Shown here piece after piece: positions 34,297 through 45,480 of a stretch of 64,000 nucleotides of DNA. Source of the stretch: Quadrisphaera granulorum (lineage in GTDB: Bacteria; Actinomycetota; Actinomycetes; Actinomycetales; Quadrisphaeraceae). Location of the stretch: NCBI RefSeq assembly GCF_003149145.1, contig NZ_QGDQ01000023.1, positions 1 to 64,000 on the forward strand, given 5' to 3'. Within the stretch, counting starts at the first letter, position 1; each line of letters opens with the position of its first letter. The notes under the pieces were generated by a model, which saw only the letters and a list, made by a program, of their open reading frames with translations, did no database searches and was not told where the DNA came from. Made by a program: the position numbers and the translations under genes.

Positions 34297-34335
34297 AGGT
34301 TCCATCCGCTGAGGCACCCTCAGCGGATGGAACCT
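34297..34335 (+). terminator. Hairpin ending ferritin and overlapping the next start codon
   Basis: Perfect 18-bp arms (34297-34314 and 34318-34335) enclose a 3-base loop. The ATG of the next gene (34327) lies inside the 3' arm. It may terminate the ferritin transcript, mask the start of the next gene, or both. Confidence 0.75.
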
Positions 34336-34851
34336 GACCTCACAGCGACAGGGAGTGCGTGGCCGCTGGACGCTCCCGACGTCGTCGTCCTGCCCTCGGG
34401 CAGGCGGGTGCGCGGCCGCGGCGTGCGCACCGGCGCTCCCCCGGCGGGTCTGGAACCGACCGTCAGCTACCAGTGCACATGGGTTCGCCCGGCGCCCCAG
34501 CCTTGGCCCGTGCGATGGGTGCGCTGGCCCGACTTCGGGTTGCCGCTGGTGCCCGTTGACGCCCGTGCTGCGCTATGTGAAGCCTGGGAGCGCGCCGCCA
34601 CCGAGCGCGTCGAGGTGAGCTGCGGCGGCGGCAACGGACGCACCGGGACGGCGCTCGCGGTGATGGCGGTGATCGACGGCGTCGACCCGGCCGATGCCGT
34701 GGCGTGGGTGCGCGAGCACTACCGGCCGACCGCCGTCGAGACGCTGTGGCAGCGCCGGTGGGTGGCTGGCGCTCAGAGCACCGGCGCCCGCGGCACCACG
34801 AGCGGAGTGCCCGTCTCCGGGTCGGGGACCACGCGACAGGCTAGGCCGTAG
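34327..34851 (+). CDS. Small protein-tyrosine-phosphatase-like protein
   Basis: This 174-residue protein carries a P-loop phosphatase motif CGGGNGRTG (the Cx5R signature, near residues 99-107) preceded by a WPDFGLPLVPVD segment, which resembles dual-specificity/tyrosine phosphatases. The substrate is unknown. The start ATG is inside the 3' arm of a perfect hairpin and has no ribosome site. The last 79 bp overlap the 3' end of the siderophore ABC ATPase gene on the other strand, and the C-terminal residues (about 150-174) are low-complexity. Confidence 0.75.
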   Translation: MEPDLTATGSAWPLDAPDVVVLPSGRRVRGRGVRTGAPPAGLEPTVSYQCTWVRPAPQPWPVRWVRWPDFGLPLVPVDARAALCEAWERAATERVEVSCGGGNGRTGTALAVMAVIDGVDPADAVAWVREHYRPTAVETLWQRRWVAGAQSTGARGTTSGVPVSGSGTTRQARP

Positions 34852-35600
34852 ACCTCCTCCACCAGCTCCGCGGTGACGACGTCCGTGGGCTTCCCCTGCG
34901 CCACGAGCCGCCCGCCGGACATGGCGATGAGGTGCGTCCCGTACCGGCACGCGAGGTTGAGATCGTGCAGGACGGCTACCACGGTGCGGCCCTCGCGGCG
35001 CAGCCGCGCGCACAGGTCGAGCACTTCGACCTGATGGGCGATGTCCAGGTACGTGGTCGGCTCGTCGAGCAGCAGCACCGGCGTCTCCTGCGCCAGCGCC
35101 ATCGCGATCCAGGCGCGCTGCCGCTGGCCACCCGACAGCTCGTCGACCGGCGCGCTGGCCAGGGAGGCCACTCCGGTGGCCTCCATCGCAGCCCTCACGG
35201 CGCGCTCGTCGGCGGCGGACCACTGTCGCAGCAGGCTCTGGTGGGGGTAGCGGCCGCGGCCGACAAGGTCGGCCACGGTGATGGCGTCGGGTGCGGTGGG
35301 GCTCTGCGGCAGCAGGCCCAGCTGGCGGGCGACGGCCTTGGCAGGCTGGCGATGCAGCGCCTCGCCGTCGAGCAGCACCGCCCCGGCCTGCGGCACGAGC
35401 AGGCGGGCGAGGGCGCGGAGAAGCGTCGACTTGCCGCACGCGTTGGGGCCGACCACCACGGTGAACTCGCCGTCGGGGATGTCGAGGGTCAACGCATCGA
35501 CGATGACGCGGTCGGCGTAGCCGAGCCGCACCCCGTCGACCCGCAGCCGCGCCGAGCGGGACGCGGGAGGAGGCGGCGGATCACTGGGAGCGGTGGTCAT
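34773..35600 (-). CDS. Iron-siderophore ABC transporter, ATP-binding protein
   Basis: This is a 275-residue FecE/FepC-type ATPase. Walker A is VVVGPNACGKSTLLRAL, the signature is LSGGQRQRAWIAMALAQ, Walker B is PVLLLDEPTTYLDIAHQ; YLDIAHQ is typical of siderophore importers. The ATG overlaps the permease stop by 4 bp. It is the last gene of a three-gene minus-strand unit whose binding protein is encoded divergently at 37796. Confidence 0.95.
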   Translation of the reverse strand: MTTAPSDPPPPPASRSARLRVDGVRLGYADRVIVDALTLDIPDGEFTVVVGPNACGKSTLLRALARLLVPQAGAVLLDGEALHRQPAKAVARQLGLLPQSPTAPDAITVADLVGRGRYPHQSLLRQWSAADERAVRAAMEATGVASLASAPVDELSGGQRQRAWIAMALAQETPVLLLDEPTTYLDIAHQVEVLDLCARLRREGRTVVAVLHDLNLACRYGTHLIAMSGGRLVAQGKPTDVVTAELVEEVYGLACRVVPDPETGTPLVVPRAPVL

Positions 35601-36670
35601 CGGCGCCTTCCGAGAGAAACCAGCAGGTAGACGAGGTAGAGGCCGCCCACCGCGCCGGTGACGAGCCCGACCGGCAGAGGGTCGGGGAAGCGGGAGGCGA
35701 TGAGGTCGGACAGGAGCAGCAGGGCCGCTCCCCCGAACGCCGCGGCGAGCAGGCCTGGACCGGGCGCCCGGGTCAGCCGGCGCGTCACCTGCGGTGCGAC
35801 GAGGGCGACGAAGGCGATGGGCCCGGCTACCCCCACCGCGAGTGCTGCAAGGAGCACTCCGACCAGGGCGAGCAGGAGCCGGGCCCGGCCGAGGCGGACG
35901 CCGAGGGCGCGGCTGGTGTCGTCGCCGACCTCCATCGCTGTCAGGGGTCTGCTGAGCGCGGCGAGCAGGGGCGTCAGGACCACGAGGCCGACGGCGAGCA
36001 GCTGCAGCTGCGACCAGGTGGCCTGGGAGGTGCTGCCGACGGTCCACCGCTCGGCGGTGAGCGCGTCGAGCACGTTCGCGCGGCTGATGAGCGCGGCGTT
36101 GAGCGCGTAGACGGCGTACCCGGTACCCAGGCCGACGAGCACCAGCCGGAACGGCTGCAGCACTCCGCCGCGCACGGACAGGGCGTACACCGCCGCGGCG
36201 GTGAGCAGGCCCCCGGCGACCGCCGCGCCCGACACCTGCCACTGCTGGCCCGAGCCGTGCAGCACGGCGACGACGCCCCCTGCCGCAGCTCCGCTGGTGA
36301 ACCCGATGACGTCGGGGCTGCCCAGGGGGTTGCCGGTGAGCCCTTGGAACACCGCGCCCGCGGCTCCCAGGGCCGCTCCGACGAGCAGCGCCGTCACGAC
36401 CCGCGGCGCTCGCAGCTCGGTCACTACGAAGGCGGTACCCGGGTCAGCGGTGCCCAAGAGCGCCCTGACGACGTCGACCGGGGGCACGGCCAGGTCTCCG
36501 GTGGTCATGCCCACGGTGGCCATCGCCACGAGGAGCACCAGGAGGAGGACGACGACGGCGACGCTGCGGCGTCGCACGCGCACGCTGGTGCCCAGAGGGC
36601 CACGCAGCACCGACACCCCGGCGGGCAGCACCGAGTCGCGGAGTACGCGCTCCGTGCTCTGCGCGCTCAC
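35597..36670 (-). CDS. Iron-siderophore ABC transporter, FecCD-type permease
   Basis: This 357-residue permease has about nine or ten membrane spans after a 30-residue basic N terminus. FecCD-family blocks are RAPRVVTALLVGAALGAAG, FQGLTGNPLGSPDVIGF and PIAFVALVAPQVTRRLTR. It forms a heterodimer with the next gene product. The GTG start overlaps the other permease stop. Confidence 0.94.
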   Translation of the reverse strand: MSAQSTERVLRDSVLPAGVSVLRGPLGTSVRVRRRSVAVVVLLLVLLVAMATVGMTTGDLAVPPVDVVRALLGTADPGTAFVVTELRAPRVVTALLVGAALGAAGAVFQGLTGNPLGSPDVIGFTSGAAAGGVVAVLHGSGQQWQVSGAAVAGGLLTAAAVYALSVRGGVLQPFRLVLVGLGTGYAVYALNAALISRANVLDALTAERWTVGSTSQATWSQLQLLAVGLVVLTPLLAALSRPLTAMEVGDDTSRALGVRLGRARLLLALVGVLLAALAVGVAGPIAFVALVAPQVTRRLTRAPGPGLLAAAFGGAALLLLSDLIASRFPDPLPVGLVTGAVGGLYLVYLLVSLGRRR

Positions 36671-37734
36671 AGGCGGGGGATCCGGCGCCGCCGGACCAGG
36701 AGCACGAAGAGGGGGCCGCCGACGGCTGCGGTGACGATGCCGACGGAGACCTCACCGGGGCTGCCGACCACGCGACCCATCACGTCTGCGGCCAGCAGTG
36801 CCACCGCTCCCAGGGGCAGGGAGAGCACCAGGACCCACCGCAGGTCCGCCCCGACGAGCAGGCGTGCGACGTACGGAACCGCGAGGCCGATAAAGGCGAT
36901 CGGCCCGGCCAGGGCCGTCGCCGCACCACACAGCACCGCGACGGCGGCGGCCGCGAGCACCCGGGTGCGTCGCAGGCTGACGCCGAGGCCGGCGCCGACG
37001 TCGTCGCCGAGGGCAGCGGCGTTGAGCGCCTGCCCCAGCCCGAGGGCCACCACGGCGCCGAGGAACAGCAGCGGCCCGACGACGAGCAGGTCGCCGGCGT
37101 CACGCCCGGCGATCGCGCCGTACCGCCAGGAGCGGAAGGCGGTGAACGCGGCGGGGTCGAGGAGGATGACGGCCTCGATGTAGGCGTAGAGGACGGCGGA
37201 GACCGCCGCTCCGGCCAGCACGAGGCGCACGGGATCGGTGCCGTTGCGCCCAGCGCCGACCGCGTGGACGAGCGCCGCGACGACAGCCGCTCCGACCAGT
37301 GCGAACGCCACGAACTCCCCCGGTGTACGCAGGCCCAGTAGCGCGATCGCGGTGACGACGGCGGCTGCGGCCCCCGCCTCGACGCCGAGCAGTCCCGGGT
37401 CGGCGAGGGGGTTGCGGGTGAGGGCCTGCATCAGCGCACCCGCCAGCCCCAGGGCGGCGCCGACGACCAGACCCAGGACCGTTCGCGGCACGCGGAGGTC
37501 GCGCACGATGACGGCGCCCTCGCTCGTGCCGCCGCGCACGAGCGCATCCCAGACCTCAGCTGGCGCGAGGCCGTGCGAGCCGAGTGCCAGACTCGCCACC
37601 GACACGACCACGACGGCAGCCAGGGCTGCGGCAAGCAGCGCACTGCGGCGTACGGCGCTGCGGTGCAGCGCACCCGGCGTCACAGAGCCAGGTGCCTGAG
37701 GGGAGTCCCGGCTTGCCGGGACCGTCGACGTCAC
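36667..37734 (-). CDS. Iron-siderophore ABC transporter, FecCD-type permease
   Basis: This 355-residue permease is the first gene of the unit. Family blocks are LRVPRTVLGLVVGAALGLAG, MQALTRNPLADPGLLGVEAG and GPIAFIGLAVPYVARLLVG. The GTG at 37734 lies 6 bp after a -10-like TAGGGT (complement of 37741-37746) and has no ribosome site, so the mRNA is probably leaderless. Expression should be iron-repressed through the box at 37754. Confidence 0.93.
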   Translation of the reverse strand: MTSTVPASRDSPQAPGSVTPGALHRSAVRRSALLAAALAAVVVVSVASLALGSHGLAPAEVWDALVRGGTSEGAVIVRDLRVPRTVLGLVVGAALGLAGALMQALTRNPLADPGLLGVEAGAAAAVVTAIALLGLRTPGEFVAFALVGAAVVAALVHAVGAGRNGTDPVRLVLAGAAVSAVLYAYIEAVILLDPAAFTAFRSWRYGAIAGRDAGDLLVVGPLLFLGAVVALGLGQALNAAALGDDVGAGLGVSLRRTRVLAAAAVAVLCGAATALAGPIAFIGLAVPYVARLLVGADLRWVLVLSLPLGAVALLAADVMGRVVGSPGEVSVGIVTAAVGGPLFVLLVRRRRIPRL

Positions 37735-37753
37735 GAACGCACCCTAACCGTAA

Positions 37754-37772
37754 GTAGGCAAGCCTTACCTAA
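37754..37772. promoter_or_regulatory. DtxR/IdeR-type iron box
   Basis: GTAGGCAAGCCTTACCTAA is a 19-bp match to the DtxR/IdeR operator consensus TTAGGTTAGGCTAACCTAA, allowing a few changes. It lies midway between two divergent promoters with TAGGGT -10 elements and covers the -35 region of both. Iron-loaded repressor would silence the permease/ATPase unit and the binding protein together. Confidence 0.85.
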
Positions 37773-37795
37773 GCCCCCTGCTAGGGTCCGGCGCC

Positions 37796-38860
37796 GTGAC
37801 CGACATCTCGCGCAGGGCCCTGCTGGCCGTCGCCGCCACCACCACCGCCGGCGCTCTCGCCGCGTGCGGCGCATCCGCAGCCGGGGACTCCGCCGCCACC
37901 CCGGGAGCGGCGAGCGGATCCTCCGCGGGAACGGCCGGTGCGTTCCCGGTCACCATCGACACGCAGTACGGGCCCGTCACCGTGGAGAAGGCGCCGGAGC
38001 GCGTCGTCGTCGTCGGCATCACCGAGCAGGACACCCTGCTCGCCCTCGGGGTGGTCCCCGTGGCGACCACCGAGTGGTACGGCGAGCACCCCGGAGCGGT
38101 CTGGCCGTGGGCCCAGGACCGGCTCGGGAGCCAGGTGCCCGAGGTGTTGAGCACTGCCGACGGCTTCCAGTACGAGAAGATCGCGGCCCTGCGCCCGGAC
38201 CTCATCATCGGCACCAACTCCCGGATGACGCAGGAGGAGTTCACCAAGCTCTCCGCGTTCGCCCCCGTGATCACCGGCCCGACGGGCAGCACGGGCTACT
38301 TCATGCCCTGGGACGAGCAAACGCTGATCATCGCCAAGGCCCTCGGGCGCGAGGCAGATGGCACGAAGCTCGTCGATGACGTCAAGGCCTCCTACGCAGC
38401 GGCGGCCGCCGCCCACCCCGAGTTCGCCGGCAAGGTCGCGACCTTCTCCCAGAACGCCTTCTACGACGGCGTTCTCTACGTCTACCCGCCCGGGCTGAGC
38501 ACCCACTTCCTCACCATGCTCGGCTTCACCATCAACCCCGAGCTGACGCCGCTCGCCCCCGGGCCGGGCTCGCAGGCGGAGCTCTCAGCGGAGAACCTCG
38601 GCGTCATCGACACCGACGTCCTCGTGGTGGCCGCCGAGAAGCCGGAGGACATCCCCGCGCTCATGGCGGTCCCCACCTACGCGCGGCTCGACGTCGTCAC
38701 GCAGAAGCGCACCGTGTACACCGACCCGGTGCTCGCCGGGGCCATCTACTTCGACTCGCCGCTGAGCCTGCCGTACGTGGTCGAGCGCCTGCCCCAGCAG
38801 CTCGCGGCCGCGGTGACGGGGCAGGCGCCCGCCGAGATCCAGGACACCTCCAGCAGCTGA
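37796..38860 (+). CDS. Iron-siderophore ABC transporter substrate-binding lipoprotein
   Basis: This 354-residue protein has a lipoprotein signal (SRRALLAVAATTTAGALAACG, read here in two parts: the RR pair near residue 6 and the lipobox LAAC near residue 23) that may be Tat-dependent. A FecB/FepB-type binding domain follows (VTVEKAPERVVVVGITEQD; LRPDLIIGTN). It delivers ferric siderophore to the permeases encoded on the other strand. GTG start, -10-like TAGGGT 8 bp upstream and no ribosome site. Confidence 0.94.
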   Translation: MTDISRRALLAVAATTTAGALAACGASAAGDSAATPGAASGSSAGTAGAFPVTIDTQYGPVTVEKAPERVVVVGITEQDTLLALGVVPVATTEWYGEHPGAVWPWAQDRLGSQVPEVLSTADGFQYEKIAALRPDLIIGTNSRMTQEEFTKLSAFAPVITGPTGSTGYFMPWDEQTLIIAKALGREADGTKLVDDVKASYAAAAAAHPEFAGKVATFSQNAFYDGVLYVYPPGLSTHFLTMLGFTINPELTPLAPGPGSQAELSAENLGVIDTDVLVVAAEKPEDIPALMAVPTYARLDVVTQKRTVYTDPVLAGAIYFDSPLSLPYVVERLPQQLAAAVTGQAPAEIQDTSSS

Positions 38861-38903
38861 CGGCGACGAACGCGGGCTACAGCAGATGCTGGCCGGGCAG
38901 CGG

Positions 38904-40361
38904 TCAGTGCTGTCCGCACGGTGAGCCGGTACCCGCGGGCAGCGCGGCGGCGGGCAACCACGTCGGGAGGGGCCGCGGGTCGGGCACGGGCTGGTCCTCG
39001 GGGCCGCCGTACGTCCACGCCGGACCGCGGGTGAGCAGCTGGCGCAGGCCGGCGAGGAGCCTGTCGACGTCGTCGGCGCTGCTCCCGAGCCCGAGGCTGG
39101 CGCGCACGGCTCCGCCGTCGGCGCCGAGGCGCTCCAGCAGCGGGTGGGCACAGAAGCGGCCGTCGCGCACGCCGATGCCGTGCTCGGCCGAGAGGTACTG
39201 GGCCACCAGGCTCGGCCGCACGCCCTCGACGGTGAATGTCAGCACGCCGATCCGCTGGTCGACGGCGAGACCCGGCCACAGGCGGAGCACGCGCACGGCG
39301 TCGAGCTCCGCCAGTCCCCGCTCGAGGCGAGCCAGCAGCTCGGCTTCGTGGTCGATCACGTCCCGCTCCGGGAACGCCGCGAGCGTCTCGCACGCCGCGG
39401 CGAGTGCCAGGGCGCCGACGACGTTGGGCGTGCCGGCCTCGTGGCGGGCCGGCGACGTCGTCCACGTGGCGGTCTCGGTGGTGACGTTTCGCACCGCGCC
39501 GCCTCCGGCCAGGTGCGGCGGGGCGGCGTCGAGCCAGTCGCGTCGCCCCGCGAGGAAGCCGGCGCCGAAAGGTGCGTAGAGCTTGTGCCCGGAGGCGGCG
39601 ACGTAGTCGACGCCCGAAGCGGCGAGGTCGAGCCGACGGTGCGGCAGCAGCTGGGCGCCGTCGACGGCAATGCGGGCGCCGTGGGCGTGGGCGATCTCGG
39701 CCAGCTGGGCCAGCGGGAGCAGCTCGCCGGTGACGTTGGAGGCGCCGGTGACCGCCAGCAGAGCGGCGGGCTCGCGGCGTAGCTCGGCGTCGACGGCCCT
39801 GACGGTCTCTTCGACGGACACACCCGCGGTGACCACACGGGCGCCGCGTGCCTGCCAGGGCAGAAGGTTGGCGTGGTGCTCCAGGTCGAGGTGCACGACC
39901 GGTCGATCGGTGCCGGGGACGTCGGGCACCGCAGAGGCCAGCAGGTTCAGCGCGTCGGTGGTGTTGCGGGTGATGACGACGACGTCGACTGCCACGTCCG
40001 CGCTGTCGTCACTGCCCGTGCGGGCGCCGACGAACGCGCCGATGGTGGAGCGGGCGTGCTCGTACGCCGCCGTCGCCACGGTGGAGGAGTAGCCGGCGCC
40101 GCGGTGCACGCTGGCGGCCAGGGGCAAGTACTCGGCCACCCTGCCGGCCACCGACGCGAGCGCCGGGGCGCTGGCGGCGAGGTCGAGGTTGGCGTAGCGC
40201 ACGGTGCCGCCGGTCACGAGCGGCACCTGGAGGTCGGCACCGACGAGCGCTGCGAGCGGCCCCGCGGCGAGCGGACCCGCGCCGGGACAGCTGTCGCGCC
40301 GCCGGTGCCCCGTCTGCTGTGACTGCTGCGTCGGGAAGGGCGTGGGCAGGGTCGTGGTCAT
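38904..40361 (-). CDS. Class V aminotransferase-fold PLP enzyme (cysteine desulfurase-like) under SAM-IV control
   Basis: This 485-residue PLP enzyme has the class V core: YANLDLAASAPAL near the N terminus, VVITRNTTDALNLLA, LEHHANLLPWQ, the PLP aspartate in IAVDGAQLLPHRRLD and the Schiff-base lysine in YVAASGHKLYAPFGAGFLAG. It resembles SufS/isopenicillin-epimerase-like proteins, but no suf genes are near. It is preceded on the same strand by a SAM-IV riboswitch, so it should be off when S-adenosylmethionine is plentiful. A role in releasing or moving sulfur is inferred. ATG at 40361 has an AGGAG ribosome site. Confidence 0.88.
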   Translation of the reverse strand: MTTTLPTPFPTQQSQQTGHRRRDSCPGAGPLAAGPLAALVGADLQVPLVTGGTVRYANLDLAASAPALASVAGRVAEYLPLAASVHRGAGYSSTVATAAYEHARSTIGAFVGARTGSDDSADVAVDVVVITRNTTDALNLLASAVPDVPGTDRPVVHLDLEHHANLLPWQARGARVVTAGVSVEETVRAVDAELRREPAALLAVTGASNVTGELLPLAQLAEIAHAHGARIAVDGAQLLPHRRLDLAASGVDYVAASGHKLYAPFGAGFLAGRRDWLDAAPPHLAGGGAVRNVTTETATWTTSPARHEAGTPNVVGALALAAACETLAAFPERDVIDHEAELLARLERGLAELDAVRVLRLWPGLAVDQRIGVLTFTVEGVRPSLVAQYLSAEHGIGVRDGRFCAHPLLERLGADGGAVRASLGLGSSADDVDRLLAGLRQLLTRGPAWTYGGPEDQPVPDPRPLPTWLPAAALPAGTGSPCGQH

Positions 40362-40397
40362 GAGCGCTCCTCGCGGAGTCGGGGACCCGTCGAGGGT

Positions 40398-40506
40398 CCG
40401 CACTTGCCCGCCCCGGACGGGACGGACCGTGTCATCACCCGGGGCACCCCAGCGCGGAGCAGGGTTGCCGGCCAGCGAGCCGGGGCTTGGTGCTGGCACT
40501 CGTGAC
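40398..40506 (-). ncRNA. SAM-IV riboswitch (minus strand, for the class V PLP enzyme)
   Basis: The minus strand reads GTCACGAGTGCCAGC, then CAAGCCCCGGCTCGCTGG, CCGGCAACCCT, GGGGTGCCCCGGGTGATGAC, and ends with GGGCAAGTGCGG. These are the ordered conserved blocks of the actinobacterial SAM-IV aptamer, including the closing GCAAGNGCGG pseudoknot arm. It starts about 7 bp past a TAGCGT -10. SAM binding usually lowers expression of sulfur or methionine genes downstream. Confidence 0.88.
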
Positions 40507-40513
40507 GGCGCAC

Positions 40514-40519
40514 ACGCTA
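40514..40519 (-). promoter_or_regulatory. -10 hexamer for the minus-strand SAM-IV transcript
   Basis: TAGCGT on the minus strand would place the transcript start at the first base of the aptamer (about 40506). No clear -35 is visible. Confidence 0.5.
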
Positions 40520-40581
40520 CGACACCGAGCGTGGTCGGGGCTAGCTCCAGCGTGAGGACACAGCCACCACGCGGCCCCTGG

Positions 40582-40611
40582 TTGACGACACCTCGGGAAC
40601 GCCTCTAGCTT
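40582..40611 (+). promoter_or_regulatory. Promoter for the plus-strand SAM-IV transcript
   Basis: TTGACG (40582-40587) and TAGCTT (40606-40611) are 18 bp apart and predict a start near 40618, exactly where the second aptamer begins. Confidence 0.7.
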
Positions 40612-40617
40612 CACCCG

Positions 40618-40727
40618 CGGCAACGAGCGTCAGCGACAAGCCCTGGCTTGCTGACCAGCAACCCTCTCCGCGAGCGGGGTGCTCCAGGTGACAGCCCGGC
40701 AGGTCCGTCCGGACCCGCAAGCGCGTG
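40618..40727 (+). ncRNA. SAM-IV riboswitch (plus strand, for the luciferase-like monooxygenase)
   Basis: The blocks AACGAGCGTCAGCG, CAAGCCCTGGCTTGCTGACC, AGCAACCCT, GGGGTGCTCCAGGTGACAGC and CCGCAAGCGCG occur in the SAM-IV order. It lies 32 bp before the monooxygenase start and is divergent to a second SAM-IV element only about 110 bp away. The two copies differ at many positions but keep the same core. Confidence 0.87.
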
Positions 40728-40759
40728 GCCCGTCAGGGCCAGGACCCGAGGAGCAGTCC

Positions 40760-41800
40760 GTGTCGTCGTCGTCCCCGATCACCTCCCTCGCTTTCCTGAC
40801 GCCCGGCAACTACCCCGACGACGATCCCGCCGCCGGCCTCGAGGCGACGCTGCAGCTCTTCGAGCTGGCGGAAGGCCTCGGCTACGACGGAGGCTGGGTG
40901 CGGCAGCGCCACCTCGAGCACGGCGTCTCGTCCGCGGCGGTGTTCCTCGCGGCTGCGAGCCAGCGCACGTCGCGGTTGGAGCTCGGCACCGGCGTCATCC
41001 CCATCGGCTACGAGAACCCGCTGCGCCTCGCGGAGGACCTCGCCACCGCCGACGCACTCTCCCGGGGACGCCTCCAGCCCGGCTTCAGCACCGGAGCACC
41101 GCACCTGGACCTGCTCGGAGACCTCGTCCACGAAGGCGACTGGGCCAAGCGGGACCTGTCCTACGGGCGCATCGCCCGGACCGTGGAGCACCTGCGAGGC
41201 CGGTACCTGGGCGGACCCGACACCGTCATCCGCTCCCCCGGCAACGTCCAGCGCCCGCGCGTCCAGCCTTACAGCCCCGGCCTGGTGGACCGCGCCTGGC
41301 TCGGTAGCGGCAGCGCCCGGTCCGCCGCGTGGGCGGGGCGGCGAGGCCTTCACCTGCTGACCGGCAACATCGTCTCGGGTACTGACGGTGACGACTTCAC
41401 CTCCGTGCAGCTGGCCGTGCTCCGCGCGCACGCGGCGGCGTCCGACCCGCGGCGGCCGCTGCGGGTGGCGCTGGGGCGCGTGGTCGTGCCGACGGACAGT
41501 GCAGACCGCTCGACCCGCGCGCGCTACCGCGAGTACGCGGCCAGCCGGCACGAGCGCACGCTGACCGCGCACGGGCCCGCGGCGACGCGCTTCGCGCCCG
41601 ACCTCGTCGGCAGCAGCGACGAGATCGTCGAGAAGCTCCTCGCCGACCCGGTGGTGGCGCAGGTCAGCGAGCTGCGTCTGGAGCTGCCGTACGAGTTCTC
41701 CGCGGAGGACTACGCCCAGATCCTCACGGACGTCGCTCGCTCGGTCGCTCCGGCGCTGGGGTGGCGGCCAGCCGCCGTGCCCGTCCCTGTTCCGGCCTGA
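40760..41800 (+). CDS. Luciferase-like FMN-dependent monooxygenase under SAM-IV control
   Basis: This 346-residue protein of the luciferase-like (LLM) superfamily has FLTPGNYPDDDPAAGLEATL at the N terminus, the GYDGGWVRQRHLEHG segment and LGTGVIPIGYENPLRLAEDL, matching the KPN_01858-type subgroup as I recall it. Other LLM enzymes cleave C-S bonds of sulfonates (SsuD); the substrate here is unknown. A SAM-IV riboswitch in its leader ties it to sulfur/methionine status. The GTG at 40760 has a GAGGAG ribosome site; an ATG/TTG further upstream would lie in the riboswitch. Confidence 0.88.
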   Translation: MSSSSPITSLAFLTPGNYPDDDPAAGLEATLQLFELAEGLGYDGGWVRQRHLEHGVSSAAVFLAAASQRTSRLELGTGVIPIGYENPLRLAEDLATADALSRGRLQPGFSTGAPHLDLLGDLVHEGDWAKRDLSYGRIARTVEHLRGRYLGGPDTVIRSPGNVQRPRVQPYSPGLVDRAWLGSGSARSAAWAGRRGLHLLTGNIVSGTDGDDFTSVQLAVLRAHAAASDPRRPLRVALGRVVVPTDSADRSTRARYREYAASRHERTLTAHGPAATRFAPDLVGSSDEIVEKLLADPVVAQVSELRLELPYEFSAEDYAQILTDVARSVAPALGWRPAAVPVPVPA

Positions 41801-41802
41801 GG

Positions 41803-41863
41803 AGGACGACGACGGCGACGGCAGTCGTGGCGTCTGGGCTGACGCCCGCGCCGTCGTCGTCCT
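41803..41863. repeat. Inverted pair of the dispersed 15-mer, convergent gene end
   Basis: AGGACGACGACGGCG (41803-41817) and its exact complement (41849-41863) form a stem between two convergent genes, with a 31-base loop. They begin 2 bp after one stop codon and end 2 bp before the other, so they may act as a bidirectional terminator. Single copies occur elsewhere in the window inside genes. Confidence 0.65.
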
Positions 41864-41865
41864 GA

Positions 41866-42685
41866 TCAGCCGAGCAGGCCGTGCTCCTGCCAGTAGCGCA
41901 GGTGCTCGGTGGTCGACCACGCGCTGACGGCGTCGAGGTCGGGGTGCTCCGGTAACGGTGACCGACCGGTGGCCAGCAGGTCCTCCAGCTCGGCGGCGCG
42001 GGCATCGATGAGAGCAAGCGCCTGCTCCTGGGTGCGCTCGCCGCGCTTGACCCTCCAGTGCCAGCTGGCGATCGGGCTCCGGCATCGGCAGTGTCAGGCG
42101 CCCGTGGCGTGCGACCTCCAGGCCCTGGATCGCGAGCCGCAAGGCGTGAGAGGCGTACTTGGTGTCGAACCCGTACTGCGCGATGAGCTCCGGGCGGTTC
42201 GGGGCACCGGACGCGACGCCGAGCATCCGCTCACGCTGGCTGCGCAGGTACCCGAGGAACCGGTGCCCCGCCTGCTGGCTCAGCAGCTGCGGGCCGAGCG
42301 CGCGCAGTCGCTCTCCCAACGGCGTCGTGACGAGCACGTCGGAGGGCGGCGTGAAGAGCGGTAGCAACGCGGTCGGGTTGCCCGTCATGACCAGCGCCAG
42401 GTAGCGGCGCAGGCTATAGGCGACGAGGTCGACGTCGCCATGCTTGGAGCGGTGCCCCTCGGGCACGGTCCGCGCGACGTAGTGGCCGTCGACGTGCCCG
42501 ACGCCGAGCACCGCACGCGGGTGCTCGACGAAAACGGCCATCTCGTCGTGGTCGTCGGTGCCCTCGATGGCGATGCCATGCACACCCGAGCCGACCACCG
42601 TGCGCAGGATCTCTCGCTCGGTGGCGGTGGTGTCACCGTGCTGCGTCAGCCACGTACGGCCGCTGTCGACGTCGTCCCTGTCCAC
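41866..42685 (-). pseudogene. RlaP-type nucleotidyltransferase, frameshifted
   Basis: The N-terminal part (about 205 residues, GTG at 42685) has the features of predicted RNA-repair nucleotidyltransferases of the DNA polymerase beta fold: REILRTVVGSGVHGIAIEGT, DDHDEMAVFVE, DTKYASHALRLAIQGLE. After LPMPEPDRQL near 42060 the frame loses similarity, while the adjacent frame supplies the expected ending (WRVKRGERTQEQALALID to a stop at 41866, ...LRYWQEHGLLG). One base insertion or deletion near 42052-42065 explains this. It is either a real inactivation or a sequencing error. Confidence 0.75.
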
Positions 42686-42718: not shown

Positions 42719-44380
42719 TCAGGTGTCGCCGAGCCAGACCTTGCCGTAGCGGGGCAGCTCCAGCTCGAAGGGCCCCTCGGGCACGGTCACCGGTGTAGAC
42801 GTCAGCAGCTCCACCAGCTCGGTGCCCGGCGCCACCACCCCGTCCGGCACCGTCACCGTGAGGGACTCGGACGACAGCGAGTGCAGCGCCAGCACCGTGC
42901 GGCCCCGCCACGTCATGGTGTGCGCCAGCACCGACGGCTCCCCCACGTCCACCAGGCGCACCTCACCGCGGCCAAGCTCGGGACGGCCGCGGTAGGCGCG
43001 CAGCATGCGGCGGAAGAAGTGCAGCAGGGAGTCCGGGTCACGCTCCTGATCTGCCACCACCGGTCCGGGACCGGCGTCGCCGGCGGCCCAGGCCATCGGC
43101 GTGCGCACGGACATCCGCCCCGGGATCGACAGGTCCTCCAGCTGGCCGACCTCCTCGCCGTAGTAGAGCACCGGTGTGCCGGGCAGGCTCCACGTCAGGA
43201 CGTAGGCGAGCTCCATCCGGTCTCGGTCTCCGTCGACCATGGTCGGCAGGCGCAGCCGCAGCCCGCGGCCGAACAGCTGCACCTCCTCCTCGGGGCCGAA
43301 GGCGGCGAAGACCTCCTGCCGCTCGTCGTCGTCGAGCTGGTCGAGGGTGAGCTCGTCGTGGTTGCGGACGAACAGGCCCCAGCTCTTGCCCTCCGAGAGC
43401 CGCGGCCGAGACTCCAGCGCGTCGCGCAGCGGGGAGGCGTCACCGCGGGCCATCGCCAGGTAGAGGGCCTGGTTGAGCGTGAAGTCGAAGCACATCGTCA
43501 TGCGCTGGCCGGCGCCGCCGAAGAAGGGGGCGATCTCGTCCCGGGGCTTGTTGACCTCCCCGAGCATCACCGCCTCAGCGCTGCGGCGAGACAGGAAGGT
43601 GCGCATCACGTCGAGCATCGCCAGCGACTCGTCCAGGGCGGTGTCGCCGTCGTGCTGCTCATCGCGCTCGCCACTGGGCGAGCCGGGCGAACCGGCCCCG
43701 CTCGCCACGCCGGCGTCGTCGGCGTCACCGGACCGGGTGGCCGTCTCGGCCAGGTACGGGGCCGCGTCCACCCGGAAGCCCGCGACGCCCAGCTGCAGCC
43801 AGAACCCCATGATCCGGCGGATCTCGTCGCGAACCTCGGGGTTGGAGGTGTTGAGGTCGGGCTGGTGGCGGTAGAAGCGGTGGCGGTAGTAGAGACCGGC
43901 CGCCTCGTCGTGGCTCCACACAGAGTCTTCCGCGTCCGGGAAGATGATGTCCGCGTCGTCGTCCTCGGGGTCCGGCTCCTCGCGCCACACGTACCAGTGG
44001 CGGTAGGGGGAGTCCGGGTCGGAGCGGGCCGACTGGAACCACGGGTGCTCGTCGCTGGTGTGATTGACGACGAGGTCCACGATGACGCGCATCCCGCGCT
44101 CGCGGGCCGCCCGGACCACCTCGACGAACTCGCCCAGCGTGCCCAGACCGTCGTCGACGCCGTAATAGTCGGAGATGTCGTAGCCGTCGTCGCCCTCGGG
44201 CGAGGGGTAGAACGGCTGCAGCCACAGGAAGTCAACCCCCAGGTCGACCAGGTGGTCGAGGTGGGCGCCGAGCCCGGCGAGGTCACCGCGCCCGTCGCCG
44301 TCGGAGTCGGTGAAGCGTTTGATGTCCAGGCAGTAGCCGACGGCGGTGGCCCACCACTCGTCCGCGGTCGTGGTCAACAT
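42719..44380 (-). CDS. Glycoside hydrolase family 13 (trehalose synthase / alpha-glucosidase-like)
   Basis: This 553-residue (beta/alpha)8-barrel enzyme has the four GH13 regions: VIVDLVVNHTSDEHPWF (I), GFRVDAAPYLAE with the Asp nucleophile (II), VMLGEVNKPRDE with the acid Glu (III) and FVRNHDELT (IV). It is closest in pattern to trehalose synthases, but lacks a fused kinase domain. No signal peptide is visible, so it acts in the cytoplasm. An acidic insert occurs near residue 225-245. The ATG overlaps the flavin oxidoreductase stop (TGATG). Confidence 0.92.
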   Translation of the reverse strand: MLTTTADEWWATAVGYCLDIKRFTDSDGDGRGDLAGLGAHLDHLVDLGVDFLWLQPFYPSPEGDDGYDISDYYGVDDGLGTLGEFVEVVRAARERGMRVIVDLVVNHTSDEHPWFQSARSDPDSPYRHWYVWREEPDPEDDDADIIFPDAEDSVWSHDEAAGLYYRHRFYRHQPDLNTSNPEVRDEIRRIMGFWLQLGVAGFRVDAAPYLAETATRSGDADDAGVASGAGSPGSPSGERDEQHDGDTALDESLAMLDVMRTFLSRRSAEAVMLGEVNKPRDEIAPFFGGAGQRMTMCFDFTLNQALYLAMARGDASPLRDALESRPRLSEGKSWGLFVRNHDELTLDQLDDDERQEVFAAFGPEEEVQLFGRGLRLRLPTMVDGDRDRMELAYVLTWSLPGTPVLYYGEEVGQLEDLSIPGRMSVRTPMAWAAGDAGPGPVVADQERDPDSLLHFFRRMLRAYRGRPELGRGEVRLVDVGEPSVLAHTMTWRGRTVLALHSLSSESLTVTVPDGVVAPGTELVELLTSTPVTVPEGPFELELPRYGKVWLGDT

Positions 44381-45480
44381 CAGAGGACTCCCGTCCCTGC
44401 GTCGGCGCCCCCGGCCGCGCCCCGGTCCGACGCGGGTGCGGTGCCGCCCCCTCGCTCGGCCAGGGCGCGCGCCGTCGTCCCCCCGCCGGTGCGGCCGACC
44501 AGCTCCGGCGGAGCCATCGGAGCCAGGCGCGGCAGCACGCGCTCGCCGGCCTCGTCGATCCACGCCTGGAGATGCTGTCCCACGTGGTGGAGGTACACGC
44601 CGTCGAACCCGAGCCCGGCCCACTCGGCCACGGTGTCCGCGACGTGCGCTGCGTCGGCCGAGACCAGCACCGAGTTCTCCACCTCGGACGGCTGCACCCG
44701 CTGGCCGACGTCGTCGAACTGCTCGACCGTGGCGAGGTCAGCGAGGACCTTGGAGGTGAAGACGTTGTTGCGCCACTGCTCGTGCGCCACCGCCAGCGCC
44801 TCCTCGCGGGTGGGCGCCCACGACAGGTGCACCTGGAGGTTGACCGGACCGGTGCCGCCCGCGCCCCGATAAGCCTCGACCACCGAGCGCATCTGGTCGG
44901 GCAGGGCGTTGACCGTGATGAGGCCGTCGGCCCAGCTCGCGGCCCACTGCGCGGTGCGAGGGGTCAGCGCGGCGGCCAGCAGCGCCGGCGCCCGCTCGAC
45001 CGGCGGGCGGCTGAAGACCCGGGCCTCGTGCACGACCACCCGTCCGCGGTGCGTCACCTCCTCGCCTGCCAGCAGCCGACGGACGACGTCGACCACCTCC
45101 ACCAGCCGGGCGTCTCGCTCGTCCTTGGGCGGCCAGCCCTGCCCCGTGACGTGCTCGTTCATGTACTGACCGCTGCCGAGCGCCGCCCAGAAGCGGCCCG
45201 GGAACATCTCCGACAGCGTCGCGATGCCCTGCGCCGTGATCGCCGGGTGGTAGCGCTGGCCGGGGGCGTGGACCACGCCGAACGGGAGACGCGTGCGGGC
45301 GAGCGCGGCACCGAGCCACGCGAACGCCAGACCCGACTGGCCCTGGGCGGTGCCCCAGGGCGTGATGTGGTCCGAGCACATGGCGGCGGTGAAGCCAGCC
45401 TGCTCCGCCATGACGGCGTACTCCAGGAGCCGGCTCGGAGGGAGCTGTTCGTGGCTGCAGTGGAAGCCGATCACCGTCAC
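44380..45480 (-). CDS. LLM-class flavin oxidoreductase, TIGR03885-like
   Basis: This 366-residue luciferase-like protein starts VTVIGFHCSHEQLPPSRLLE and has MCSDHITPWG, FWAALGSGQYMNEHV and VFSRPPVERAPALLAAALTP, a pattern of a subgroup described as found also in genomes without coenzyme F420. It is coupled by a one-base overlap to the GH13 gene, a pairing I have seen described for this subgroup. The last 45 residues are a Gly/Ala/Thr-rich tail. GTG 45480 is preferred; 45504 is the alternative. Confidence 0.87.
   Translation of the reverse strand: MTVIGFHCSHEQLPPSRLLEYAVMAEQAGFTAAMCSDHITPWGTAQGQSGLAFAWLGAALARTRLPFGVVHAPGQRYHPAITAQGIATLSEMFPGRFWAALGSGQYMNEHVTGQGWPPKDERDARLVEVVDVVRRLLAGEEVTHRGRVVVHEARVFSRPPVERAPALLAAALTPRTAQWAASWADGLITVNALPDQMRSVVEAYRGAGGTGPVNLQVHLSWAPTREEALAVAHEQWRNNVFTSKVLADLATVEQFDDVGQRVQPSEVENSVLVSADAAHVADTVAEWAGLGFDGVYLHHVGQHLQAWIDEAGERVLPRLAPMAPPELVGRTGGGTTARALAERGGGTAPASDRGAAGGADAGTGVL

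Follow-up and report, generated by a model that had tools for sequence, protein, structure and literature searches.

The 398-bp region between two divergent genes of Quadrisphaera granulorum (40362-40759) carries two separate riboswitches of the known SAM-IV class, one at the 5' end of each mRNA, and the pair is real. One heads a gene for a type II cysteine-desulfurase-like PLP enzyme and the other a gene for a luciferase-like monooxygenase (LLM). In our main reading, which we hold at a probability of about 0.7, each riboswitch represses its own gene at high S-adenosylmethionine (SAM), and the two enzymes serve a larger SAM-IV regulon from within a mobile or differentially lost block. With plentiful SAM, each aptamer would fold and expression of its own gene would be lowered; with low SAM, which would reflect methionine and sulfur supply, both genes would be expressed. 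The LLM would then break a C-S bond in an organosulfur compound taken up by the cell, and the PLP enzyme would release or transfer sulfur from a cysteine-type substrate. Both would belong to a regulon that covers organosulfur scavenging as well as the synthesis and uptake of methionine, and their genes would have arrived in that block. The features of the window (the whole stretch of DNA analyzed, 64 kb) are as follows.

34773-41870, no strand assigned: block absent from four congeners, with siderophore-type ABC transporter, PLP gene, LLM gene and both riboswitches (borders approximate)
38904-40361, minus: type II cysteine-desulfurase-like PLP enzyme, 485 aa (PF00266, aminotransferase class V, 265 bits)
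40383-40399, minus: predicted leader hairpin GGACCC-TCGAC-GGGTCC, 5' arm overlapping the aptamer 3' tail; a same-register hairpin is conserved in PLP leaders
40395-40507, minus: SAM-IV aptamer heading the PLP gene (RF00634, 107.5 bits, E 7.7e-19, model positions 1-116)
40514-40519, minus: putative -10 element TAGCGT of the PLP transcript (consensus match only)
40582-40587, plus: -35-like TTGACG, 18-nt spacer to TAGCTT
40606-40611, plus: putative -10 element TAGCTT of the LLM transcript (consensus match only)
40619-40729, plus: SAM-IV aptamer heading the LLM gene (RF00634, 84.0 bits, E 1.6e-13, model positions 1-116)
40726-40741, plus: predicted leader hairpin TGGCCC-GTCA-GGGCCA, 5' arm overlapping the aptamer 3' tail, one base off the PLP-leader register
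40760-41800, plus: luciferase-like monooxygenase, 346 aa (PF00296, 97.7 bits, above the gathering score of 27.9)

A cmscan search of the whole window with 4,227 Rfam families at the gathering threshold returned only two matches, both to SAM-IV. Both exceed the RF00634 gathering cut-off of 38 bits and run the full length of the model, which places both RNAs in the family. The minus aptamer also scored 104.3 bits with our own covariance model R1, which was made from 32 aptamers and had this sequence among its input. The distance from aptamer end to start is 33 nt for the PLP enzyme and 30 nt for the LLM, and the genome (4.88 Mb, 86 contigs) contains nine SAM-IV aptamers in total. Much of the original prediction, made from the letters of the DNA, was borne out: it had placed a SAM-IV-like aptamer on each strand at 40398-40727 (accurate to within 3 bases of the Rfam borders), in an intergenic region of some 400 bp, each directly 3' of its own -10 element. 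A TANNNT box indeed stands on both strands with a gap of 6-7 nt. The downstream genes had been named correctly as a class V PLP enzyme and a luciferase-like monooxygenase, and suf, ssu and met genes, said to be absent nearby, were not found among the neighbors scanned.

The plus aptamer scores 23 bits below the minus aptamer and has nonstandard pairs in P1 and P5 of the Rfam alignment. By eye, PK-2 pairs as UCCGCG/UGCGGA on the minus aptamer and as CGCG/CGCG with one mismatch on the plus aptamer; in the excerpted text of the cryo-EM structure paper, PK-2 joins the P3 loop to the 3' tail, which is the PK-2 strand (PMC6890682). These irregularities would fit a plus aptamer that is degenerate and no longer switches, the SAM response being limited to the other gene. 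We consider this quite improbable: the plus aptamer lies 46 bits above the cut-off, keeps the conserved core and shares an unusual GGCA start and a GCGTGGC tail with the aptamers of loci L119 (81%) and L120 (77%), the closest to it among 31 others, both heading ABC transporter-LLM operons. Both window RNAs are predicted to bind SAM. They resemble other SAM-IV riboswitches in their full-length match, their actinobacterial host and the sulfur-related genes downstream. They differ in standing as two on opposite strands of one 398-bp region, whereas those in the excerpts of published work are single.

The S. lividans promoter consensus is TAnnnT plus nTGACn, according to the part of the report consulted (PMC8079986). 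The plus promoter fits both elements. The minus promoter fits only TAnnnT, and no clear -35 was found upstream of TAGCGT. Simple sigma-70 and terminator scans of 40330-40800 returned nothing, and the leaders of the window contain no U-tract terminator.

Comparison of leaders indicates that the 3' tail of the aptamer, the PK-2 strand, doubles as the 5' arm of the predicted conserved hairpin. About three bases are common to PK-2 and the hairpin by eye, and the two structures should therefore compete. Taken singly, the window hairpins are not significant, since 27 of 100 shuffles (minus) and 43 of 100 (plus) do as well. Covariation was assessed on 37 leaders, namely the window minus leader and 36 hand-picked of 51 with a recognized start; the set excludes eight leaders with at least 53 nt to the start and seven others, three of which (L196, L208 and L221) fit the register poorly. 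In this set, 95.0% of the cells pair (shuffled mean, 88.8%), 13 two-sided changes occur (shuffled mean, 4.3), and the covariation of 0.328 (shuffled mean, 0.218) was reached by none of 500 shuffles. Two statistics were weaker: three pairs show a two-sided change, which 71 of 500 shuffles reach and a slide of +1 raises to four, and the nine further pair types were reached by 16 of 500 shuffles. All of these shuffle tests ignore the relatedness of the leaders.

Because the covariation set was hand-picked, the fixed-arm test was rerun without selection on 73 leaders from the 80-locus set described below and both window leaders. An unbroken 6-bp partner was present in 67 of 75, compared to a mean of 47.5 (maximum 55, n = 500) when arms were swapped among leaders and of 10.9 (maximum 21, n = 200) when the downstream sequence was shuffled. 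The partner was missing in eight (L157, L178, L181, L183, L202, L221, L223 and the window plus leader). Simple masking of the Shine-Dalgarno (SD) sequence by the freed 3' arm was considered and rejected. The test covered 50 leaders, namely both from the window and 48 of the 73 (of the 51 with a recognized start, three with the start 104-136 nt away were left out). Keeping the tail unpaired lowered SD accessibility in 16 of them and raised it in 15, and 19 stayed nearly the same; the means were 0.430 and 0.425. No consistent change was thus seen, and masking is not claimed. In riboswitches of this class SAM represses the gene downstream, and the same direction of control would hold for both window genes.

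The PLP enzyme belongs to the type II cysteine desulfurases by fold. Its best NCBIfam match is SufS (TIGR01979) at 281.5 bits, below the cut-off of 475.1, and the PDB entries closest to its profile are cysteine desulfurases. The PLP lysine K260 (SGHK) and C404 (R-x-G-x-FCAHP) are invariant in 18 of 18 aligned relatives. The C404 region aligns with RAGHHCAQPL of the solved cysteine desulfurase 8d8s, and both Lys and Cys stand at the SufS positions. The enzyme shares with SufS and CsdA the fold family, the PLP lysine and the catalytic Cys in an R-x-G-x-x-C-A motif. In contrast to them, it has FCAHP instead of HCAQP, scores below the SufS cut-off, lacks suf neighbors and is under SAM-IV control. 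A canonical SufS (487.9 bits with TIGR01979) is encoded on another contig of the same genome. Neither the PLP enzyme nor the LLM reaches the cut-off of any named NCBIfam family.

A SAM-IV aptamer ahead of such a gene is widespread. Model R1 detected one immediately 5' of the PLP gene in 73 of 80 loci; the 80 were kept as those most similar to the query and are thus not a random sample. The seven exceptions are L161, L171, L182, L186, L198, L225 and L227; record titles or tree labels assign five of these to the Microbacteriaceae. Matches at E 1e-75 or better occur in 145 of the 394 class genomes sampled. Among 21 further loci from class genomes (20 mostly high-scoring of these 145 matches, and the cluster in genome G129), 20 have SAM-IV just upstream, by Rfam in 18 of 18 scanned and by R1 in L148 and L149; in the G129 PLP cluster, neither Rfam nor R1 found one. 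A close orthologue in three other genomes of the family is preceded by SAM-IV in all three, and a second copy in G006, 47% identical, has none. The PLP half is also the kind of target already published for other species, as far as the excerpts of two Streptomyces reports go. They place SAM-IV ahead of the cysteine desulfurase gene SLIV_26975 in S. lividans (PMC8079986) and of the class V PLP gene CRV15_21540 in S. clavuligerus (PMC8269248). The excerpts mention neither a second aptamer nor an LLM, and the likeness to the window gene is drawn from the descriptions of these genes. The CRV15_21540 leader gives a premature transcript and is among the most extreme drops into coding sequence (PMC8269248, excerpt), which suggests control of transcription, at least in S. 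clavuligerus.

Two side observations concern these loci. Locus L190 (Sporosarcina beigongshangi, contig labeled Bacillota) contains an actinobacterial SAM-IV-PLP unit that branches among Micrococcaceae, by transfer or contamination. In 14 of the 80 loci, from Rhodococcus and allied genera (L151-L210, e.g., L188:6419-7045), a short, truncated LLM-like open reading frame of about 170-210 aa follows the PLP gene.

The LLM is probably an FMNH2-dependent monooxygenase; no flavin reductase gene was seen by eye among the called genes beside it. Its best NCBIfam match, TIGR04027 (LLM_KPN_01858), reaches 96.8 bits against a cut-off of 412.9. Orthologues at 64-74% identity are present in 13 other genomes of 394, two of these matches being partial, and further matches, down to the 1e-65 cut-off, show 45-51% identity. 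SAM-IV occurs in two of the 13 loci (L119 and L120), about 5.7-5.9 kb upstream of the LLM gene, at the head of an operon with genes for an SBP, two permeases and an ATPase (by eye) and for the LLM. It was not found in the stretches fetched for the other 11, and the window is the only place where this LLM subfamily was seen directly behind SAM-IV. Since the plus aptamer is nearest to those of L119 and L120, the window LLM gene probably represents that type of SAM-IV operon minus the transporter genes.

The NtaA/DmoA family and SfnG/SfnB are FMN-dependent C-S cleaving systems, and MsuD is another LLM system of this kind, according to an abstract. Like these, related genomes have LLM genes, transporters and SfnB-like oxidoreductases under one sulfur control. 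Unlike them, the window LLM falls into an unnamed subfamily nearest TIGR04027, and control is by a SAM riboswitch. It is solely SAM-IV control and the regulon that suggest C-S bond cleavage by this LLM. A second LLM at 44380-45480 (minus) scores over the cut-off for the TIGR03885 family of FMN-dependent oxidoreductases and lies beside glycosidase-like genes, without SAM-IV.

To describe the regulon, we surveyed every SAM-IV site of 13 family genomes, 70 in total, taking co-directional following genes by a 350-nt rule; sites in congeners are not independent. Labels were given by similarity to seeds, part of which were scanned against families. The sites precede metY with or without metX (13), metX alone (3), a methionine-type ABC transporter (13), an LLM-containing operon (11, among them G008:C4:29168, labeled solely by seed L048a, which itself matches no Pfam family), SfnB/DszC-like oxidoreductase genes (9), PLP genes (4) and other or unnamed genes (11); six have no gene within the rule. 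Thus, 29 of 70 sites precede metX/metY or methionine transporter genes, and 20 precede LLM or SfnB/DszC-like genes. Two of the six sites without a gene (G009:C79:30190 and G004:C7:76956) do precede LLM genes. The targets within the genome of the window include MetY-MetX, methionine-type ABC transporters, an LLM operon with one NtaA/DmoA-family member above cut-off, and two SfnB/DszC-like oxidoreductases below the cut-offs of those families. Excerpts of published work place SAM-IV ahead of an O-acetylhomoserine sulfhydrylase gene in Mycobacterium avium (PMC3774663) and name cg1478 of Corynebacterium glutamicum as a SAM-IV target (PMC3890552). At L040/L041 (G009:C79:16724-30299), four SAM-IV aptamers lie in 13.6 kb. 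They precede a methionine-type transporter, a permease-hydantoinase-like operon (by eye; two in tandem, about 0.8 kb apart) and an oligopeptide-type ABC-LLM operon (LLM by Pfam).

The original prediction had gone further and seen in the pair a small, dedicated two-enzyme pathway, for which it named a lack of conserved co-occurrence of the two genes as refuting. The divergent SAM-IV pair ahead of sulfur-type enzymes stands by sequence and comparison. The pathway with conserved linkage does not: linkage of the two genes is seen in just one of the 13 other LLM-orthologue genomes, and just 7 of 80 loci have a full LLM gene no more than 5 kb away from the PLP gene. The one linked genome, G129, has the LLM orthologue and the PLP gene 9 kb apart, without SAM-IV; within 12 kb, it holds the LLM orthologue, transporter genes, an M20 peptidase gene, an NtaA/DmoA-family LLM gene and the PLP gene. 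The 7 loci compare to about 3.8 expected by density (P ~0.09). This count comes from a tblastn search of all 80 loci with ten LLM seeds and may miss divergent LLMs; the expectation derives from 425 LLM matches in 88.9 Mb of 15 genomes other than those of the 80 loci, with the density for G068 a lower bound (78 of 117 candidates scored). Given the single linkage and the weak enrichment, the two genes are more plausibly seen as belonging to the broad SAM-IV regulon.

A two-step pathway, with the PLP enzyme acting on what the LLM produces, would explain the shared divergent control in the window and the PLP-LLM clusters of several distant lineages. The PLP gene is also present in 12 of 13 other LLM-orthologue genomes compared to 144 of 393 overall (Fisher P 4e-5, in a test that ignores genome relatedness). 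However, this co-occurrence is confounded by relatedness, this particular LLM gene is linked to the PLP gene in just one other genome, and the LLMs that do lie near PLP in the 80 loci match other seeds, with no homologue of this one found among them. We regard the two-step pathway as unlikely. The divergent pair is not a general arrangement either, as none of the 80 PLP loci has SAM-IV on the opposite strand in the DNA stretches compared. Such pairs were seen in the window, at G008:C11 (without a PLP gene) and at G058:C16; within the family, the window and G008:C11 account for all four back-to-back aptamers among the 70. A role of the siderophore-type ABC transporter in the pathway was also rejected, since none of the 80 loci has a homologue of its SBP or permeases near PLP.

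The PLP enzyme could instead be a second cysteine desulfurase, for Fe-S clusters, thiamine or tRNA thiolation, unrelated to the LLM and its neighbor by accident in an acquired block. SufS as the best NCBIfam match points this way, as do the PLP gene that looks stand-alone by eye in many of 20 loci, the 73 of 80 loci without a full LLM gene within 5 kb, and the assignment of SLIV_26975 to thiamine metabolism in the excerpt on S. lividans (PMC8079986). Against it, a canonical SufS is present elsewhere in the genome, SAM control would suit methionine and sulfur supply better than Fe-S supply, and PLP and LLM genes occur together in several other genomes. In G223, two LLM genes and one that encodes a GST C-terminal domain come after SAM-IV-PLP. 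In G058, the PLP gene stands on one side of a divergent SAM-IV pair; the opposite side has genes for three LLMs, a permease (by eye) and a flavin reductase-like protein that scores below cut-offs. Nakamurella (L174) and a Frankiales MAG (L153) likewise combine the PLP gene with LLM genes and SAM-IV, and in Leifsonia (L198) the LLM gene follows the PLP gene without SAM-IV; G129 is a further case. A second desulfurase is a serious possibility, which we nevertheless place below even odds. Just as tentatively, the SAM-IV-controlled family may have sulfur scavenging, and not Fe-S supply, as its dedicated role, acting alongside flavin monooxygenases (as a desulfinase or C-S lyase, for example) in an organosulfur regulon run by riboswitches, the divergent pair being a compact transferable module.

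The original prediction did not recognize such a pathway as one already described. A target of the PLP kind is published in the two Streptomyces species. The open-access literature searched, partly in excerpt, yielded no description of an LLM or SfnB gene under SAM-IV control, nor of two divergent SAM-IV riboswitches; for a search of open-access papers, this is not proof of absence. Protein regulators of sulfate starvation are known elsewhere. If the main reading is true, actinobacteria steer organosulfur scavenging directly by a SAM-sensing RNA and do not depend on such proteins alone. It would also give a testable role to an uncharacterized desulfurase-like family with matches in over a third of the class genomes sampled, and a reason why one sensor stands ahead of metY, methionine transporter, LLM and SfnB-like genes.

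The genes that flank the block adjoin one another in the congeners L283-L286, and about 7 kb is therefore extra in the window. Larger flanking genes were matched by blastp, and the nucleotidyltransferase gene and a small gene at 34327 by eye. The congener junction shows local differences: a DUF1684 gene in L286, the nucleotidyltransferase uncalled in L285, and ferritin uncalled in L284-L286. The PLP orthologue is missing in five of five congeners, where matches reach only 38-40% identity (SufS level), and is present, always with SAM-IV, in three of four genomes of another genus of the family. In a tree of 51 rows (32 of the 80 loci, 14 other class-genome loci, three family copies, the window and SufS), a Frankiales MAG and two Nocardioidaceae form a group with the window PLP enzyme (support 95/96), which the other copies of the family do not join. 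The GC content of the block does not stand out. The simplest reading is horizontal gain of the block; differential loss in the congeners is the alternative. At its right edge, a nucleotidyltransferase-like gene (by eye; 41871-42685, minus) seems frameshifted, and the corresponding frame is open for about 275 aa in L283, L284 and L286. The DUF1684 gene of L286 (PF07920; L286:2677-3501) occupies the same insertion site, and such a gene also lies beside the LLM orthologue in L117, with look-alikes by eye in L122, L124 and L129.
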